Source: Candidatus Melainabacteria bacterium (GTDB lineage: Bacteria; Cyanobacteriota; Vampirovibrionia; Obscuribacterales; Obscuribacteraceae). Taken from it: 64,000 bases of DNA. The notes under the pieces are model-generated. The model was not told where the DNA came from. It did not search any database and saw only the letters and a list, made by a program, of their open reading frames with translations. Positions 14,052 to 23,240 of the stretch are shown here, in pieces. The stretch covers positions 1 to 64,000 of the forward strand of contig RXJR01000016.1 of the NCBI GenBank assembly GCA_003963305.1, in the 5' to 3' direction. The position numbers and the translations under genes were made by a program. The first letter of the stretch is position 1; each line of letters starts with the position of its first letter.

Positions 14052-14084
14052 AAGCGTGCTCGGCGCAAGGCGGGGCACGCTTTT
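14052..14084 (+). terminator. Rho-independent terminator
   Basis: Perfect 8-bp stem AAGCGTGC (14052-14059) with GCACGCTT (14075-14082), followed by TTTTC. It closes the coiled-coil gene and insulates the following operon. Confidence 0.75.
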
Positions 14085-14114: not shown

Positions 14115-14885
14115 ATGAATAAGAGATTGTGTTCCGCTTTACTCGGCATCAGTTTGTCCGTGGCGATGTTTGCGCCTTCCGGACAGGCGAAGACATTGGT
14201 TGGTGAAATCGACCACAGTGAGACTTTACAACCTTTAGATCCATCGATTGCTGTGGGCGAGATCTTCGAACCATCGAAACTGCCCACACTAGACAGTCAA
14301 CCGGCTAACAAGTGGTACCGGATTCCAGCCTGGTTGGCTGGCACCTGGCACAAAGAGAGCCAAACTGACTACTACAGATACAACTACAAAACCGATAAAA
14401 CCGACACGACCACTCGCACCGAACCTGCCAAGGCAACCGGCACCTGGGGCACCCAACAGGACGACAAGGGGACGATCTGGCAATTCGATCCGGCTCCTTT
14501 CACTGCGACCGTCGACAGCGGTGACGACTTCGTTGTGCAAATGGTCAGGTCTAGTGAGCCTATCGATGTTTCAGATCGCAAGTTTGTCAGACGAAGCATC
14601 GACACTCAGATTCGCGTCTCTAAAATGAACGGAGTGATCAAATCGGTAGAGTCCGGTGAACAACTCACCACTTATCGACCAGAAGGCGATGGGCTGATTA
14701 AGCGTGAAACTTCTGCCAAAGTTTTCGACACGCAGGGCCAGCCGATACTGCTTGGTAAATCATTTGCTTATGAGAACCGTGTCAGTGGATTCACGCCTCA
14801 AGATTCTTACAAGGGTAAGGATATGAAAAAGCTGTTTCAGGAGTTCCTACAATCGAATAGTGAAACTGCCTCGGCTACACCATAG
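14115..14885 (+). CDS. Exported protein of unknown function
   Basis: 256 residues. A signal peptide is clear (MNKRLCSALLGISLSVAMFA, cleavage about AKT after residue 25). The mature protein has a WLAGTWHKESQ motif near 75 and is rich in Thr and Asp with many alternating beta-type stretches, suggesting a beta-barrel or lipocalin-like fold; the family is not recognised. First gene of an operon; 9 bases separate it from the M1 aminopeptidase gene, which implies co-translation and perhaps shared location outside the inner membrane. Confidence 0.7.
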   Translation: MNKRLCSALLGISLSVAMFAPSGQAKTLVGEIDHSETLQPLDPSIAVGEIFEPSKLPTLDSQPANKWYRIPAWLAGTWHKESQTDYYRYNYKTDKTDTTTRTEPAKATGTWGTQQDDKGTIWQFDPAPFTATVDSGDDFVVQMVRSSEPIDVSDRKFVRRSIDTQIRVSKMNGVIKSVESGEQLTTYRPEGDGLIKRETSAKVFDTQGQPILLGKSFAYENRVSGFTPQDSYKGKDMKKLFQEFLQSNSETASATP

Positions 14886-14894
14886 GGGAGAAGA

Positions 14895-17570
14895 ATGTTT
14901 AAAAAACTGTCCGAGCGACTCGGGCTGATTTCGCTCAGTCTACTTTTAACCACCTCTAACGCCTCCCTCGGCTCAGACAAGCCGTTGAAAAACAAGTCGG
15001 CAGGCAAATCAGCCGTGCCTGCAGAATATCGCCTCCCGGAAGGCATCTGTCCCAAAAGCTATGATTTATTTTTTCAACCCGAGCTGGGCAAACGCAGTTT
15101 TGCCGGCAAGGAGACGATATCAATCGTAGTGGCATCGGCTAAGCCTTCCATCGTCTTGAATGGCATCGAATTGAACATACTGAGCGCCACACTAAAAGAT
15201 AGCTCCGGCAAGACAACCAAACTGAAAGTGACTCCGGAAGCCAAATTTGAGAGAATTCACCTGCAAAACGGCTCGACGATTCAGCCAGGCAACTATCAGC
15301 TTTCGATCAACTTTACAGGCACGCTCAATGACAAATTGCGGGGCTTCTATCGTTCTGATTTCAAAGACAAGAAGGGCGTCACGCACTTCATCGCTACGAC
15401 TCAAATGGAGCCTACAGATGCCAGGCGAATGTTCCCCTGCTTCGACGAGCCGAGTTACAAAGCCACCTACAAAGTGACCGCATCCATCGATCCCGCCCTT
15501 GTCGCGATATCAAACAGTGCCGTTGCCGAAGACAAAGTCGATGCGAAAACTCATAAGCGAGTCATGAAGTTCGAAGAAACTCCCGTTATGTCGAGTTATC
15601 TTCTTGCACTTATTGTCGGTCCCTTTAGGAGCACACCCCTGGCCGTTTCTGAAGGTGTTCCAGTGAAAGTCTGGTGTGTTGCCGATCGAACTTCATTGGG
15701 CACGTATGCACAGCAAGTAGCGACCAAGTTATTGCCTTTTTACAACAAGTATTTCGGCGTTCCGTATCCAGGCAAAAAGCTCGATTTAATTGCCATTCCA
15801 GACTTTGAAGCAGGCGCTATGGAGAACCTTGGCGCGATCACATTCCGCGAGAGTGCACTGCTCATTCATGAAAAAACGGCATCAACAAGTTCTCGCATGG
15901 AAGTCTCATCCATAGTCGCCCACGAGATGGCGCACATGTGGTTCGGTGATCTTGTCACCATGAAATGGTGGGATGACCTCTGGCTCAACGAAGCGTTCGC
16001 CACCTGGATGGCCACAAAAGCTTGCGATTTCTTGCGTCCCGACTGGCATGAGTGGGATCACTTTGCTGCCGACCGCGCTCGTGCTCTGGAAAGTGATTCT
16101 TTGATGTCGACACGTCCGATTCACTTCAATGTCGACAACCCGCTGCAAGCGCTGGAGATGTTCGACGAGATCACCTACACGAAGGGTGCGTCGATTCTCA
16201 GAATGCTCGAGCGATTTGTTGGCGAAGATACATTCCAGATTGGTATTCAGGACTATATCAAAGCGCACCAGTTCAGTAATGCCACGACCGAAGATTTGTG
16301 GAGCGCAATTGGTACGGCTTCGAAGTTAGATGTTTCAGCCCTGATGAAAAATTGGGTGATGAAACCCGGTTACCCTCTTGTTGATATTCAGAAATCAGCA
16401 CGTGGACTCGATCTCGTTCAGTATCGATTCATCCTGATTCCGCCCGCTACCGATCAGACTCCGGCCAAAACGATCTGGCACACTCCCGTTTCCTTCCGCC
16501 ATTCCAACGAGCAATCTCCTGAGAAGTTTTTGTTTGAAGATCAAAATGCGACGCTGACTAAACCGATGGAAGCGCCGTTCACCGCCAATGCACATGGTGA
16601 CGGTTACTTTCGCGTCAAATATACCGATGAGCAACTCAAGAAACTGGCGTCGGCGATTCAAAACTTTGATGTTCAGGAGCGTCTTGGTCTGATAACAGAT
16701 CAATGGGCACTCTGTTACAACAACAAAGTTTCGATTGAGTCATTTCTGAATTTGACGAAAGCTTACGCTGATGAAAAGGATCCAACCGTAATTGGTGCGT
16801 TGATCGAAAAAATCAATGGTCTATACAAGTTCATTACGCCTCCTGCGCGTCCTGCCTTCGCCACGTTCGTAAGAAACACGCTCTCCCGACAGAAAGAAGA
16901 ATTCGGATGGCAGCCTCACTCCGGTGAGTCGGATCTGACGGCATTGGCAAGAGTAGATGTCTTGAGAACACTGGGCACCATCGGTCAGGATCAGAGCGTC
17001 ATCGATAAGGCGCGACAACTTTTCGCTCAATACGCGAAAAACACAGCATCGCTCGACCCAAACATTGCCGAGGCAGTCACGGTGATTGTGGCTTATAACG
17101 GCAATGCATCAGACTACAAGCAATTGTCCAAACTCTGGCAGACCGCTCAAACTCCTGAAATCGAAAAGCGCGCACTGTTTTCTTTAGCGCTTTTCAAACA
17201 ACCGGAGCTTGCCGATCAGACTCTGGCCATGTCAATCACCGATAAGGTTCGTACACAAGATGCGCCCCGACTATTGGGTCGCTTACTGGGTCAAGTTGAT
17301 ACCAGTGCCAGAGCATTTGCGTTTGTCCAGAGCAACTGGGCTGTGCTCAACAAGCGGTTCCCACCAAATTCGATGCCGCAGATCGTTTCAGCCGCTGCCG
17401 CTTCTTTCACCACAGCCGAGCAAGAGTCAAAGGCAAGAGTGTTTGTATCTACACACCCGATGGCGGCAGGAAAACGTACGATCAGGAAAGCACTTGAGTG
17501 GATACATGGCAACGTCATCTTCCGCCGCAATGCTGCCATTGAGTTGAATAACTCTCTGACGAAAAAATAA
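14895..17570 (+). CDS. Exported M1-family zinc aminopeptidase
   Basis: 891 residues with a signal peptide (residues about 1-30). The N-terminal beta domain holds TQMEPTDARRMFPCFDEP. The substrate-anchoring GAMENLG motif is near 305-311, the zinc site HEMAHMWFGD near 342, the third ligand Glu in WLNEAFATWM near 364, and a catalytic Tyr in the ITYTKGASIL segment. A C-terminal helical ERAP1-like domain fills residues about 530-890. This is the full M1 architecture, similar to aminopeptidase N/ERAP rather than the short leukotriene A4 hydrolase group. It removes N-terminal residues from peptides, here probably in the periplasm. GGGGAGAAG precedes ATG 14895. Its TAA shares one base with the next ATG. 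Confidence 0.95.
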   Translation: MFKKLSERLGLISLSLLLTTSNASLGSDKPLKNKSAGKSAVPAEYRLPEGICPKSYDLFFQPELGKRSFAGKETISIVVASAKPSIVLNGIELNILSATLKDSSGKTTKLKVTPEAKFERIHLQNGSTIQPGNYQLSINFTGTLNDKLRGFYRSDFKDKKGVTHFIATTQMEPTDARRMFPCFDEPSYKATYKVTASIDPALVAISNSAVAEDKVDAKTHKRVMKFEETPVMSSYLLALIVGPFRSTPLAVSEGVPVKVWCVADRTSLGTYAQQVATKLLPFYNKYFGVPYPGKKLDLIAIPDFEAGAMENLGAITFRESALLIHEKTASTSSRMEVSSIVAHEMAHMWFGDLVTMKWWDDLWLNEAFATWMATKACDFLRPDWHEWDHFAADRARALESDSLMSTRPIHFNVDNPLQALEMFDEITYTKGASILRMLERFVGEDTFQIGIQDYIKAHQFSNATTEDLWSAIGTASKLDVSALMKNWVMKPGYPLVDIQKSARGLDLVQYRFILIPPATDQTPAKTIWHTPVSFRHSNEQSPEKFLFEDQNATLTKPMEAPFTANAHGDGYFRVKYTDEQLKKLASAIQNFDVQERLGLITDQWALCYNNKVSIESFLNLTKAYADEKDPTVIGALIEKINGLYKFITPPARPAFATFVRNTLSRQKEEFGWQPHSGESDLTALARVDVLRTLGTIGQDQSVIDKARQLFAQYAKNTASLDPNIAEAVTVIVAYNGNASDYKQLSKLWQTAQTPEIEKRALFSLALFKQPELADQTLAMSITDKVRTQDAPRLLGRLLGQVDTSARAFAFVQSNWAVLNKRFPPNSMPQIVSAAAASFTTAEQESKARVFVSTHPMAAGKRTIRKALEWIHGNVIFRRNAAIELNNSLTKK

Positions 17571-18391
17571 TGGCTGTTGCTGGTCGAAGAGCAGCTGCGA
17601 AACCCGCCATTAAAGCGATTATCGCCTTACTTGGTTGCGCCCTCATCATGCAGGCAGCAACAGAGCATGCACTTGGCAGACAGGTAGCTTCGCCTCCAGC
17701 CCGGATGTTGTGGGCCTGGGAACGTCCTGAGGATCTGCGTTTTATCGATGCGAAAACGACCGGCGTAGCCTATCTAGTCGCCACTATAAAACTTAGAGGT
17801 GGTGCCGTAATTTGCATAAACCGCCACCAACCGCTGCGCGTTCCACCTGGCACTTACATGATGCCAGTCGTCAGAATCGAGTCTGACGGAACCCTGGACA
17901 GTTCAAGGACAACAGAAATCGAGAAGATAGCCGCGATAATTCCGCGCTTCTTGACCCCACGTGTGCGTGGTTTTCAATTTGACTTCGACGCCCGTAAAAG
18001 CGAAAGGGGCTGGTATAAAAATTTCTTGCTGAAGATGCGTGAGACGCTTCCAGCCGATCTTTACCTGTCGATGACGTCAATCGCTTCCTGGTGCCTGGGT
18101 GACGACTGGATCAACGGCAATAAATTGCCTGTTGATGAAGTCGTCCCAATGTTTTTCGAGATGGGCGCAGACACAAGACAGATAGGCGTTCTTCTCGACA
18201 ATGGCAACACATTCGGACACACCTTTCAGTCAATTGGAATTTCAGACAAGGACATGGCGATAAACAAACGTCTTGGCAAGTTCGTAACAGGTATACTAAA
18301 GCCGACTCCACGGCTTTATATGTTTTCGCGCAAGCCGTGGAACCAACAGAAAGTGCAAACGCTGGTGCAAGAGGTCAATAACTGGAAATGA
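17570..18391 (+). CDS. Exported DUF3142-like protein
   Basis: 273 residues. A hydrophobic N-terminal helix (about 17-34) serves as signal or anchor. The rest resembles DUF3142 as I remember it: MLWAWERPEDLRFID near the start, a central GFQFDFDAR strand with acidic residues like a TIM-barrel hydrolase active site, LYLSMTSIASWCLGDDW, then VPMFFEMGAD. The barrel-like pattern suggests a glycoside hydrolase-like fold, but no activity is established. ATG 17570 overlaps the M1 gene stop by one base and its TGA overlaps the next ATG by four bases (ATGA), so it is firmly part of the operon. Confidence 0.7.
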   Translation: MAVAGRRAAAKPAIKAIIALLGCALIMQAATEHALGRQVASPPARMLWAWERPEDLRFIDAKTTGVAYLVATIKLRGGAVICINRHQPLRVPPGTYMMPVVRIESDGTLDSSRTTEIEKIAAIIPRFLTPRVRGFQFDFDARKSERGWYKNFLLKMRETLPADLYLSMTSIASWCLGDDWINGNKLPVDEVVPMFFEMGADTRQIGVLLDNGNTFGHTFQSIGISDKDMAINKRLGKFVTGILKPTPRLYMFSRKPWNQQKVQTLVQEVNNWK

Positions 18392-20691
18392 ATATCGCAA
18401 AAGTCGGAGTGATGATTGCTGCTCTCTCGTTCTGTTTAAACCCGATGAGAGCTTACTCGTGCGGACCATTCTTCGACGAAACGGTTTTCAGTTACCAGTA
18501 CCATCCCGACCTGCCGCTCAAATTTTTCGCCGATGGCAAGCTTGGTGTCATAGAACCCAGTTTTGCCCGCTCCTATTTATTTGCTGCCTACCGCGATTTG
18601 TCCGGTAAGCCTCTCACCGATGCTGAGCAGAAGTCCATTATAAAAGTCTGGGAAACTCGCATGACCAACGCCGATGCGGTTGTCGGTTATGCCGGCGCGG
18701 GCATGGAAAACTGGTTGAAAGAGAGAAACAAACTGCCCGGCATCAAGAAGATCGATATGATCTCGTCTGACAGACCGGTATCTCAAACCGATGGCGACAC
18801 AGCCAACACGTATTTAAACTGCCCGGATGATGCATTCAAAAATGCCACCACAATCTTGCAACAAAAAATCAGCAAGTTTGGCGCTAATTCGGCGGCAGTA
18901 AAAGATTGGGTGGGAGCACAAGACCAGGTATTCAGCCATTGCGCTGGTCCCAGCTATAAATGGGAAACGAAAAAATACGAGGCTGAGCCACCATTCCCCT
19001 CACCGGCCATTGCCTCCGCTGATGCGACTACCCGAGCTGATCGCGCCTATCAAATCGCCGCAGCACACTTTTACGCACAGAAATTCGATCAGGCCGCTCA
19101 GGAATTTGATGCCATAGCAAAGGACGAATCATCACCTTATCGCGACATTGCACCGTATCTGGCGGCTCGCTGTATGCTCCGAAAAGGAACCCTGGCTCCG
19201 AAATATGACATTGGCGCCCTTCAACACGCGCAACAACGTCTGAAAAATATTATTGACGACTCGAAATCATCAGCCAATATTCGCGAAGCCGCAAACAAAC
19301 TTTTGACTTTTATTGCCATACGAGAGACACCCGAAGCAACGCTAAAAGCCCTTGCCCACAAAATCGCCAATGGTGGAGCCAATGAAGCTTTCGGTCAAGA
19401 TGTGATCGACTACACATGCATGCTCGATAAATACTTTGACTGGAGCGTTGACAACGAATCGAACGAATCGCCCAAGCTGTCCCAAATACCTGCCGCCGCA
19501 CAATCCGATCTGACTGAATGGATCACTCTCGTACAAACCACAGATGCTCAGGCTGAAGAAGCTGCGTTCAAGAAATGGAATAATTCCAAGACGCCTCTCT
19601 GGCTGATTCCAGCGATTATGCATGCGAAAGCAGGTGGCAAAAACAGCGCCGCTTTAATCGAGTCTGCCCTTGCTGTGCCAGCCAGTTCCTCAGCCTATTT
19701 GACGGTGCGATACTATGCAGTCAAATTGCTTGTCGAATCAAAAGATTATGCCCGAGCAAAGAAGACGATCGACGAGGCTCTGGCGCTCAAAGACAATCCT
19801 CCTTCAACCGTTAACTTATTCCTCGACCAGAAAATCAAACTGGCAAAATCGATCGCCGAGTTCTGGCCCGATGCCGTTCGCTTCAGCGCTGGAGCAATGA
19901 ACGATTCTATGGGACTGGAAACTCCAGACGATCTGGATAAAGCAGAAGCAAGAAATAGTTGGTACGTCGGACCTTCAGCTTTCAGCCCGAGCGCAGCAAA
20001 CGTGATTAATCAATCGATGCCGCTCAGCATACTGGCTAATGCAGTCTGGTCGAACTGGGCAGTAGCTCAGAAACGGGATTTTCTACAAGCCGTCTGGACT
20101 CGAGCTATTCTGCTCAACGATGACAAAGTGATCGCTCAAATCACTCCCCTTCTAGCCGCCCAGAATCCGCTTCTGGCAAAGTTGCTCAATGAATATAAAG
20201 CCGCGACCAATCCAGACCAGAAAAGATTTCTAAGCACGTACATTCTTCTGATAGACCCGGCTATGCGCCCCTATGTCACGCCAGGAACGGCGCGACAAGC
20301 CGCTTTTAATAAGATTGACGACTTTCAGGACAACTGGTGGTGCTCTACCGGTCCTTCTACAAGCGACGACGGAGACACACCTCAGAAACCGGTGAAAGTC
20401 AAAGCTGATTTTCTAACGCCAGCTCAACTCGCTCAGGCTGCTGCCGAGGACAAAAAATTGAAGGCTGCCGGATCTGGTTCCACATACCTGCTGACGGAAC
20501 TGCTAGCCTACGCAAAGAAGCCTGGAACGAAGGATAAGCGTTTGCCGGAAGCGCTTTACCACGCAATCAGATCGCCAAAATTCGCCTGTACGGACAAAAA
20601 CACTTCCGCTCTATCGAAGACAGCATTTCAACTGATGCATAAACAATATCCTCATGATCCATGGACAGCGAAAACACAGTATTGGTACTAA
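18388..20691 (+). CDS. Large exported helical-repeat protein of unknown function
   Basis: 767 residues. Signal peptide 1-24 with a Cys at the likely cleavage region (YSCGPFFDE), which could be a lipoprotein-like start but lacks a proper lipobox. About residues 200-660 are helical, with TPR-like pairs (RAYQIAAAHFYAQKFDQAAQ near 225). There are acidic and aromatic conserved-looking patches (NWWCSTG near 648). No enzyme motif seen. It overlaps the upstream DUF3142-like gene by 4 bases and the downstream hydrolase gene by 31 bases. Probably periplasmic or surface exposed; a partner of the M1/DUF3142-like pair is a reasonable guess. Confidence 0.65.
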   Translation: MNIAKVGVMIAALSFCLNPMRAYSCGPFFDETVFSYQYHPDLPLKFFADGKLGVIEPSFARSYLFAAYRDLSGKPLTDAEQKSIIKVWETRMTNADAVVGYAGAGMENWLKERNKLPGIKKIDMISSDRPVSQTDGDTANTYLNCPDDAFKNATTILQQKISKFGANSAAVKDWVGAQDQVFSHCAGPSYKWETKKYEAEPPFPSPAIASADATTRADRAYQIAAAHFYAQKFDQAAQEFDAIAKDESSPYRDIAPYLAARCMLRKGTLAPKYDIGALQHAQQRLKNIIDDSKSSANIREAANKLLTFIAIRETPEATLKALAHKIANGGANEAFGQDVIDYTCMLDKYFDWSVDNESNESPKLSQIPAAAQSDLTEWITLVQTTDAQAEEAAFKKWNNSKTPLWLIPAIMHAKAGGKNSAALIESALAVPASSSAYLTVRYYAVKLLVESKDYARAKKTIDEALALKDNPPSTVNLFLDQKIKLAKSIAEFWPDAVRFSAGAMNDSMGLETPDDLDKAEARNSWYVGPSAFSPSAANVINQSMPLSILANAVWSNWAVAQKRDFLQAVWTRAILLNDDKVIAQITPLLAAQNPLLAKLLNEYKAATNPDQKRFLSTYILLIDPAMRPYVTPGTARQAAFNKIDDFQDNWWCSTGPSTSDDGDTPQKPVKVKADFLTPAQLAQAAAEDKKLKAAGSGSTYLLTELLAYAKKPGTKDKRLPEALYHAIRSPKFACTDKNTSALSKTAFQLMHKQYPHDPWTAKTQYWY

Positions 20692-22319
20692 GATTCGTGT
20701 TTTGTAAGCTTTTAGTTGCCGCCCTCGTTTCCACATTGATTTGCGTGGAATCGGTTTCTGCACACTCGAATAAAGGCACACACAATCACGCCAATTCAAA
20801 GCAAGGCGGGTCGCCGGGTCAGAATGGCGCGCAGTCAGGTACCCAGACAAACCAGCTCGACACTCCACCCTGCTTGAGTTGGATCAGTCCGGTATTGAAA
20901 CCGAGAGCTTTGCTCTTGTGCGTACATGGGCTTGGACTGTACAGCGGCAGCTATGCGAATTTCGGTAAGAGACTGGCCCGGCTCGGGATTAATGTCTACG
21001 CAATCGACGTGCGGGGTTTCGGATCGTGGATGCGTAATGGAGGGCACGATCAGGTAGATTTCAACGGTTGTCTGAACGACGTGAAAACAACACTTCTATC
21101 GATTCGCAGTGCTAATCCTGGTATGCCGGTCTTCCTGCTCGGTGAATCCATGGGTGGTGCGATCGCTTTGAGAGCGGCTTCGATGTATCCGGATCTGATT
21201 GACGGCTTAATTTCTGCAGTACCATCAGGTGATCGGTTCAAGCAGAAAAAGACTGACTTGAAAGTCGCTCTGCAGTTCTTAAAAGGTGCCGATAAACAGT
21301 TCGATGTCGGGTCTGCGATAGTGGATCAGGCTACTGCAAATCCCAAGCTTCGCGACGACTGGGCAAGTAATCCGCTTGATCGCATGAATCTGTCACCGAA
21401 GGAATTGATTCAGTTTCAATCATTTATGAATGACAATCATGACTCAGCAAAAAAGATCATTACCACTCCCGTACTTATGGTGCAGGGCAACAACGATAAA
21501 CTCGTTAAGCCCGAAGGTACGTGGGATTTGTTCAACGAAATCGCATCTGAACAAAAATCTTTTCTTGCCGTGCCCAGTGAGCATTTAATTTTCGAAGAAC
21601 AGCAGGACAAGGAGCGTATTTTCGACCGCCGTATCGATCAAATGACCGCCGCCTGGATTATGTGTCACACCGCAGATACTGTCAGAACAGCAGCAGTGGC
21701 TCAAGCCCACAACAACTCACTTTCCGAACCGATAAACTTAATCGCGTCAGGAAATTATGCAGACGCAAAAACTGAATTACAGCAAATTTTAGAGCGCGAG
21801 CCCCTCAATGCAGAGGCGCACTATTGGCTCGGCATCACCCTCTACAAATCACGCAATGTCAGTGCGGCACAGAAAGAATTCGAGACTTGCGTCAGCCTTG
21901 GAAATGATCCGGTTCATTTGAAAGATGCTTCGAATTATTTGCTGGCAATCAAAGGCAAAGATGTAGATTTGCCGCCTGTCATTCCAACTGACTCAACCGG
22001 AACAGCGACTCCAATCAGTCATCCCGAAATTTCCCAGGGCGTGCCTACGGTGCTTGCCTTCTACGCCCCCTGGGTTGCCCAGTGTCGTGAGATAGTTCCC
22101 ATGTTCATGCAAGCGCAACAGCGATACGGACCACGTCTGCGCCTGATTCAAGTTGACATCGATACCCCGGACGGAAAAAGTCTTGCCAGCCAGCTCAATA
22201 TTGGTCCAATACCTACTTTCGTGTTCTTGACAGGCAGTGGCGATATAGCAAAAACTCGAATCGGCATGTCAAGCTTTATCGATTTTGCTAAGAACATAAC
22301 AACTATCTTGCCACGCTGA
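20661..22319 (+). CDS. Exported alpha/beta hydrolase fused to TPR and thioredoxin-like domains
   Basis: 552 residues. Signal peptide about 1-35. Residues 70-330: serine hydrolase of the monoglyceride-lipase type with LLCVHGLGLYSGSY (oxyanion region), nucleophile GESMGG, Asp in VQGNNDK, and His in VPSEHLIF. Residues about 350-430: a TPR pair (AKTELQQILEREPLNAEAHY). Residues about 450-552: a thioredoxin fold with FYAPWVAQC and cis-Pro in GPIPTFVFL. The usual CxxC is VxxC, so only one Cys remains and dithiol redox activity is lost. Its start overlaps the upstream gene by 31 bases. A triple fusion of this kind is unusual. Periplasmic lipase/esterase or acyltransferase with protein-binding domains is the best guess. 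Confidence 0.75.
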   Translation: MDSENTVLVLRFVFCKLLVAALVSTLICVESVSAHSNKGTHNHANSKQGGSPGQNGAQSGTQTNQLDTPPCLSWISPVLKPRALLLCVHGLGLYSGSYANFGKRLARLGINVYAIDVRGFGSWMRNGGHDQVDFNGCLNDVKTTLLSIRSANPGMPVFLLGESMGGAIALRAASMYPDLIDGLISAVPSGDRFKQKKTDLKVALQFLKGADKQFDVGSAIVDQATANPKLRDDWASNPLDRMNLSPKELIQFQSFMNDNHDSAKKIITTPVLMVQGNNDKLVKPEGTWDLFNEIASEQKSFLAVPSEHLIFEEQQDKERIFDRRIDQMTAAWIMCHTADTVRTAAVAQAHNNSLSEPINLIASGNYADAKTELQQILEREPLNAEAHYWLGITLYKSRNVSAAQKEFETCVSLGNDPVHLKDASNYLLAIKGKDVDLPPVIPTDSTGTATPISHPEISQGVPTVLAFYAPWVAQCREIVPMFMQAQQRYGPRLRLIQVDIDTPDGKSLASQLNIGPIPTFVFLTGSGDIAKTRIGMSSFIDFAKNITTILPR

Positions 22320-22380
22320 GACTGGAGATGCGTACGGGCTCATGTATCATAGTGTGGGCACATAATGAGAACGGTGGACA

Positions 22381-23169
22381 ATGACAACTACTGACTTATA
22401 CGAATCTGAAGCGCTTCTCGATCAAGCGCGCAAAGCAGCTAACAAACGACAATTCTCGGCGGCAGCAAACTTGTTCGATCAAGCTGCGAAACGCAGAGAA
22501 AAGGCTCTCGGAGAAGACGTCAGCGTTGCCCAAATTCTCGACGAACTCGGCGCAGTTCAGATTGCTCTCGGTAAATTTGATGAGGCTGAAAAGACTTTGA
22601 CCGGCGCACTGGCGATGGCAGAAAAGTTGCTTTATGCGGGTCATGGATTGCTCGTTCCTTTCTGTCAGCATCTTGCCGATTTGCATATTCTGCAAAAGAA
22701 ATATGCAGAGGCAGAACCGTTCGCTGCCAGAGCTCTGGAAATCAGTGAAAAAACTTTGAGTGGTGAACATCGAACCACTTTGCTCAACATTCAACGTCTG
22801 GGCCTGGTGCAGAGCAAATTAGACAAACAAGCCGACGCCGAGAAAACACTGACAAAAGCGCTGAAGCATATCGATTCTCCGCTCGGACCACTTGAAGAAT
22901 TCAAATATGAGCTCGCCATGTTATTCCAGGCTCAAGGGAAAACTGCCGAAGCTGAGAAAGCATACAAAGAAGCAATCGAAGGGCTCGAGTATCGCACCAA
23001 CCTGCCGAGACTGGCAGAATGTCTGACAAGTTACGCCGAGTTTTTGAAAGCAAACAATCGCGGCAGCGAAGCAGAGCCATTTCTTCAAAGAGCGAAAACA
23101 GCCAGCGAGAACAGTCGCGATTGGCATCATTCGCCGGATATCTTCCCGTCAACTTTGCTGCGAGCTTAA
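22381..23169 (+). CDS. TPR (kinesin light chain-type) protein
   Basis: 262 residues, almost wholly tetratricopeptide-type helical pairs with a period near 42 residues (EKTLTGALAMAEKLL, AEPFAARALEISEKTL, AEKTLTKALKHID, EKAYKEAIEGLEYR). No signal peptide, so cytoplasmic, unlike the five genes before it. ATG 22381 with GGTGG upstream; 61 bases from the hydrolase gene and followed by a strong terminator, so probably the last gene of the unit. The LLVPFCQHLADLHILQKKYAEAE stretch resembles the TPR block of the large 31478 protein, suggesting paralogy. Role: protein-protein scaffold, partner unknown. Confidence 0.75.
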   Translation: MTTTDLYESEALLDQARKAANKRQFSAAANLFDQAAKRREKALGEDVSVAQILDELGAVQIALGKFDEAEKTLTGALAMAEKLLYAGHGLLVPFCQHLADLHILQKKYAEAEPFAARALEISEKTLSGEHRTTLLNIQRLGLVQSKLDKQADAEKTLTKALKHIDSPLGPLEEFKYELAMLFQAQGKTAEAEKAYKEAIEGLEYRTNLPRLAECLTSYAEFLKANNRGSEAEPFLQRAKTASENSRDWHHSPDIFPSTLLRA

Positions 23170-23205: not shown

Positions 23206-23240
23206 CAAGCGATAGTCGTGTCAATCACGACTATCGCTTG
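23206..23240. terminator. Strong bidirectional terminator
   Basis: Perfect 15-bp stem (23206-23220 with 23226-23240) and TCAAT loop between convergent genes. On the minus strand it is followed by GGTTTTGAC; on the plus strand by TTCAG. Confidence 0.75.

Follow-up and report, generated by a model that had tools for sequence, protein, structure and literature searches.

A conserved gene pair encoding a predicted exported GH18-like DUF3142 protein and an alpha-solenoid partner in an aminopeptidase operon of Obscuribacterales

Pairings of a TPR protein with a glycoside hydrolase are known from the Pga, Pel and alginate systems. The chitinase-like DUF3142 fold is already known from TfeC of Yersinia pseudotuberculosis, a chitinase by the titles of its PDB entries (8y6t, 9vtv) and, according to two reviews, an anti-Candida effector of type VI secretion. 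PA5441, from which a family of exported proteins of about 720-770 aa with a TPR-like centre takes its name (NF053584), has been tied to outer-membrane vesicles of Pseudomonas (PMC9993114) and is present in a surface-adhesion proteome (PMC5541441). A partial model led to the guess that it belongs to type IV pili (PMC8516228), and it has been proposed as a drug target. In the literature searched, DUF3142 turned up in a single paper, as one row of a table, and no paper was found for the family accessions or on the gene pair described here.

The window, that is the whole stretch of 64,000 nucleotides analysed, belongs to contig C16 of a 7.5 Mb genome of Candidatus Obscuribacterales (G000), an order of non-photosynthetic relatives of cyanobacteria; the closest named loci are those of Obscuribacterales and of 'Cyanobacteria bacterium SZAS LIN-3'. 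Six ORFs follow each other on one strand (+) with gaps of 9, -1, -4, -31 and 61 bases, in agreement with the positions given by an earlier note on this DNA, and, judged from this spacing, would be read as one transcript. The features are as follows.

14052-14082, + strand: hairpin with UUUUC after it, 5' boundary of the operon and likely the terminator of the preceding gene
14115-14885, + strand: ORF1, 256 aa, predicted exported, member of an order-specific multi-paralogue family
14895-17570, + strand: M1 aminopeptidase, predicted exported, with an ERAP1-like C-terminal domain and intact motifs
17570-18391, + strand: ORF3, predicted exported DUF3142 protein with a GH18-like TIM barrel, first gene of the core pair
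18388-20691, + strand: ORF4, predicted exported alpha-solenoid of 767 aa with an N-terminal CGPFF motif, second gene of the core pair
20661-22319, + strand: ORF5, predicted exported, an S33 alpha/beta hydrolase (GESMGG) joined to TPR and a thioredoxin fold without CxxC
22381-23169, + strand: ORF6, TPR_12 protein without export signal
23206-23240, no strand assigned: hairpin with a perfect 15-bp stem between the operon and a convergent gene

Both hairpins stand out against shuffled sequence, the upstream one, a 10-bp stem with an inner 2-bp stem, at -21.6 kcal/mol and z -4.25, the downstream one at z -9.0. As its U-run lies on the operon strand, the upstream hairpin looks as if it closed the transcript of the gene before and is likely the terminator of that gene. 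After the downstream stem the + strand reads TTCAGAT, and the T-rich tail lies on the - strand, so that this hairpin fits a terminator for the convergent gene at least equally, or a two-way terminator. The two hairpins noted before are thereby confirmed. All export calls come from a hydropathy check, with no trained signal-peptide predictor behind them; it placed a hydrophobic N-terminal segment in five of the six proteins and none in ORF6, which agrees with the five signal-type N-termini and the cytoplasmic TPR protein noted before.

What is conserved of this operon was assessed in 53 genomes from 25 genera of the order, the genera being labelled by g-numbers. The ORF4 family is present in 42 of these genomes and the ORF3 family in 41, and ORF3 lies directly upstream of ORF4 on the same strand at 52 of the 59 places where ORF4 occurs; counted from ORF3, 52 of 56 places have an adjoining ORF4, and at least two of the missed pairings sit at contig ends. 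The matched segments are separated by a few hundred bases at most and the ORFs often overlap, the two genes sharing 4 bases or nearly abutting. The well-supported pair is carried by 39 genomes from about 18 genera, mostly without M1, and among 41 loci, whose clusters were annotated in part, no further gene family is conserved beside it. The earlier note would have been refuted by relatives in which none of the genes stay together; they do stay together, so the operon is no chance arrangement. Its core, however, is the ORF3-ORF4 pair and not, as the earlier note had it, the M1 aminopeptidase. When 240 genomes of the class were searched with an ORF4 profile, the family was confined to the order except for four weak matches of TPR type.

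The genome of the window also carries a second, diverged DUF3142-ORF4 pair without M1 (G000:C31:137372-140592, L078), and second pairs of this kind are present in several other genera. In g8 and g16 the ORF4 protein is longer by about 110-135 aa (L074, L075, L076, L077), and part of the added sequence in L074 and L076 is hydrophobic and membrane-like, which suggests a membrane-anchored version.

By sequence, ORF3 scores 21.7 bits against DUF3142 (PF11340), below the curated cut-off of 30, which its paralogue in the same genome passes with 30.6. The earlier DUF3142-like assignment, weak on this score, is backed by family and fold, since 35 of 35 members of the ORF3 family match DUF3142 at E<=0.01, two of them matching Glyco_hydro_18 as well, and the family profile finds TfeC in the PDB (8y6t/9vtv, E 1.4e-7), followed more weakly by the cortex-lytic enzymes SleL and YaaH. 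The AlphaFold model (pLDDT 90) is a predicted (beta/alpha)8 barrel, for which Foldseek returns TfeC as the best match (E 8e-8, probability 1.00) and GH18 chitinases next, at modest TM-scores of 0.5-0.6 and 18-20% identity. TfeC shares with ORF3 the DUF3142 fold, the QIDFDA motif and the distances from it to the TxLxxW and DE motifs and differs by this low identity and by the export signal and fixed solenoid partner that ORF3 has. With the SleL/YaaH enzymes and GH18 chitinases, ORF3 has in common the predicted TIM barrel, an acidic motif at strand 4 and aromatic positions at strands 6 and 8. From the family profile and the predicted fold, ORF3 is probably an exported GH18-like TIM-barrel enzyme.

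Compared with GH18 enzymes, the DxxDxDxE motif is incomplete in ORF3, which reads QIDFDA and has Asp140 in the place of the catalytic Glu in all 35 Obscuribacterales sequences; because the canonical acid is replaced, activity is not assured. A dead, glycan-binding barrel, with the pair serving as a sensor, an inhibitor or a structural complex, would agree with this replacement and with the identity of 18-20% to any characterised enzyme. Yet the invariant residues of the family (W48, W50, R102, Q136, D138, D140, T169, W174, D178, M194, F196, Y250, F252 and W257) are placed for the most part on predicted strands or at strand ends, where the active-site residues of TIM barrels sit, with D138, D140, T169, W174, M194, F196, Y250 and W257 at or close to the ends of predicted barrel strands. 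Strict conservation of this whole strand-end set argues against a dead barrel, as do the Glu of GH18 acid type that the Sphingomonas and Variovorax proteins have at the position of D140, which makes it a site of Asp/Glu exchange, and the identical QIDFDA motif of TfeC, deposited as a chitinase. Loss of catalysis is, on balance, quite unlikely.

The model of ORF4 is an alpha-solenoid (pLDDT 88), and the family conserves the CGPFF motif after the export signal and last residues of KKTPYYY type. A sequence search of the PDB gave no match to ORF4. Assignment to a known solenoid was tried with a fold search and dropped, as only TPR and HEAT proteins at a low TM-score of about 0.2 were returned. Against the PA5441 family ORF4 reaches 21 bits, far from the cut-off of 300, and 33 of 41 ORF4 relatives match that family weakly; aligning ORF4-type with PA5441-type profiles in hhalign gives a probability of 95 and E 2.5e-8 over 254 columns in register. 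This supports a remote homology, with the reservation that the TPR-like stretch can inflate the score. PA5441-family proteins resemble ORF4 in export, length and TPR-like centre, in a similar C-terminal motif (..YPGSPWAQ..YYW, compared with ..YKGNPWTKKTPYYY in ORF4) and in adjoining DUF3142 in every record examined; they differ in the reversed gene order and in the score of ORF4 below the family cut-off. Of the two members that had been called uncharacterised, ORF3 is chitinase-like and ORF4 a solenoid with remote relatives in Proteobacteria.

Outside the phylum, a plasmid of Sphingomonas changnyeongensis encodes relatives of ORF4 (profile E 3e-105) and ORF3 (3e-49) in overlapping genes, and adjacent relatives of the two are found in Variovorax paradoxus (3e-43 and 9e-41); both cases come from a plasmid collection, with full-length or partial matches. 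In an Aeromonas caviae record DUF3142 adjoins a true member of the PA5441 family (579.7 bits, cut-off 300), which as a query retrieved 11 records of Aeromonas, Providencia, Burkholderia and Novosphingobium from the plasmid collection. A DUF3142 search found the same 11 of 11 records, with DUF3142 always immediately downstream of the PA5441-family gene. The order is thus solenoid before enzyme in these records and enzyme before solenoid in Obscuribacterales, from which it follows that the pairing either outlived a rearrangement or arose twice. The Providencia pair as query had no match in 5,426 E. coli genomes, and in a sample of 386 genomes of the phylum PF11340 and NF053584 gave no convincing match beyond the genome of the window.

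On an IncC plasmid of Providencia rettgeri (L086:1068-8208), the pair lies in a chromosome-like block with an IS26 transposase gene on one side, which encodes YbbN, FetAB, SPFH/NfeD, the PA5441-type protein, DUF3142 and CueR. In Xanthomonas sacchari (L085:4686-8082), a lipoprotein-like DUF3142 gene is followed by one whose 722-aa product carries ACGPEF at the N-terminal end, possibly a third partner type, for which no homology to ORF4 is demonstrable beyond the likeness of ACGPEF to CGPFF.

Because the two genes stand side by side across distant bacteria, ORF3 and ORF4 very probably work jointly on a sugar polymer. ORF3 might in that case trim or release a polysaccharide exported by the cell itself, with ORF4 as the TPR-type scaffold of the export line, and the combination of a GH18-like enzyme with a TPR/solenoid partner in one gene pair, the export of both predicted by hydropathy and the occurrence of PA5441 with vesicles (PMC9993114) and in the surface-adhesion proteome (PMC5541441) are all compatible with such an assembly line. 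However, as no other family is conserved beside the pair at the 41 loci with their partly annotated gene clusters, neither is a glycosyltransferase, a synthase or a porin, and in Proteobacteria the pair stands alone, so that a role in polysaccharide export is considered unlikely.

The M1 aminopeptidase of the window resembles aminopeptidase N (tricorn/ERAP-type) in all domains and motifs, with GAMEN at residue 307 and HExxH-18-E at residue 343 both intact (Pfam, 263 bits), and differs from it in being predicted as exported and placed ahead of the DUF3142 pair. Such a gene lies directly upstream of the pair in 15 of 41 fully read loci, which belong to g1, g5, g10, g18, g19 and g22. In a tree of M1 proteins the pair-linked copies form two clusters inside one subfamily, so M1 joined the pair either once, with later losses, or twice. 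The genome of the window also has three tandem M1 genes within 9 kb (G000:C33:32941-41661, L003-L005), apart from the M1 of the operon.

The other genes are local additions to the pair. ORF5 follows it in g1, g18 and two genomes of g19, ORF1 and ORF6 are linked to it in g1 and g18 only, and ORF1 adjoins M1 in g1, g18 and g21. The ORF1 family (in the window at 14115-14885; L124-L133), predicted to be exported and with a conserved WLAGxW / GxQxDxxGxIW core, occurs in 51 of the 53 genomes in up to 12 copies, 7 of them in the genome of the window, and matched nothing in Pfam or the PDB, also when searched as a profile of 24 sequences. The fusion of hydrolase, TPR and thioredoxin parts described for ORF5 is present and forms a recurring family in the order, with near full-length matches in several genera; its redox motif is lost, with WVAQC in the window and WAEQC, WAEEC or WCEGA in relatives taking the place of CxxC.

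A periplasmic peptide or lipid processing operon with M1 at its centre, as proposed by the earlier note, would be in line with an intact, exported M1 that adjoins or overlaps ORF3 in the six genera and with the restriction of linked copies to just two clusters of one subfamily. This is nevertheless very unlikely, as most genera, and the Proteobacteria, have the pair without M1, and in g21 the same M1 subfamily is found elsewhere in the genome, beside ORF1. From that proposal, peptide processing is plausible for M1 itself, but the S33 hydrolase is all that speaks for lipid processing.

The reading preferred here, with a probability of roughly 60%, is that the core of the operon is an exported GH18-like glycosidase and an alpha-solenoid partner acting on a GlcNAc-type glycan, to which M1 is coupled in some genera. 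ORF3 would cut a GlcNAc-containing glycan, be it chitin, peptidoglycan strands or a polysaccharide of the envelope or matrix, while ORF4 may tether either ORF3 or the glycan, in the periplasm or at the cell surface; the vesicle association of PA5441 fits an envelope location (PMC9993114). The gene cluster of the pair would have recruited an exported M1 in six Obscuribacterales genera, and in two or three genera an esterase and TPR proteins too, so that the material cut by ORF3 might also lose peptides to M1 and esters to ORF5, and the combined set might attack glycan, peptide and ester linkages in the envelope or in external biomass. The absence of M1, ORF1, ORF5 and ORF6 beside the pair in most genera counts against this reading.

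More tentatively, and at slightly worse than even odds, DUF3142 and the PA5441/ORF4-type proteins could form a widespread exported glycan-processing system common to Obscuribacterales and Proteobacteria, in which the gene order was flipped at least once and of which the partner was overlooked in the case of TfeC. Two large families, DUF3142 and the PA5441-type proteins, gain from the pairing a common context and a joint function that can be tested, and that a chitinase-like enzyme accompanies the PA5441 family speaks for glycan processing, not for type IV pili.
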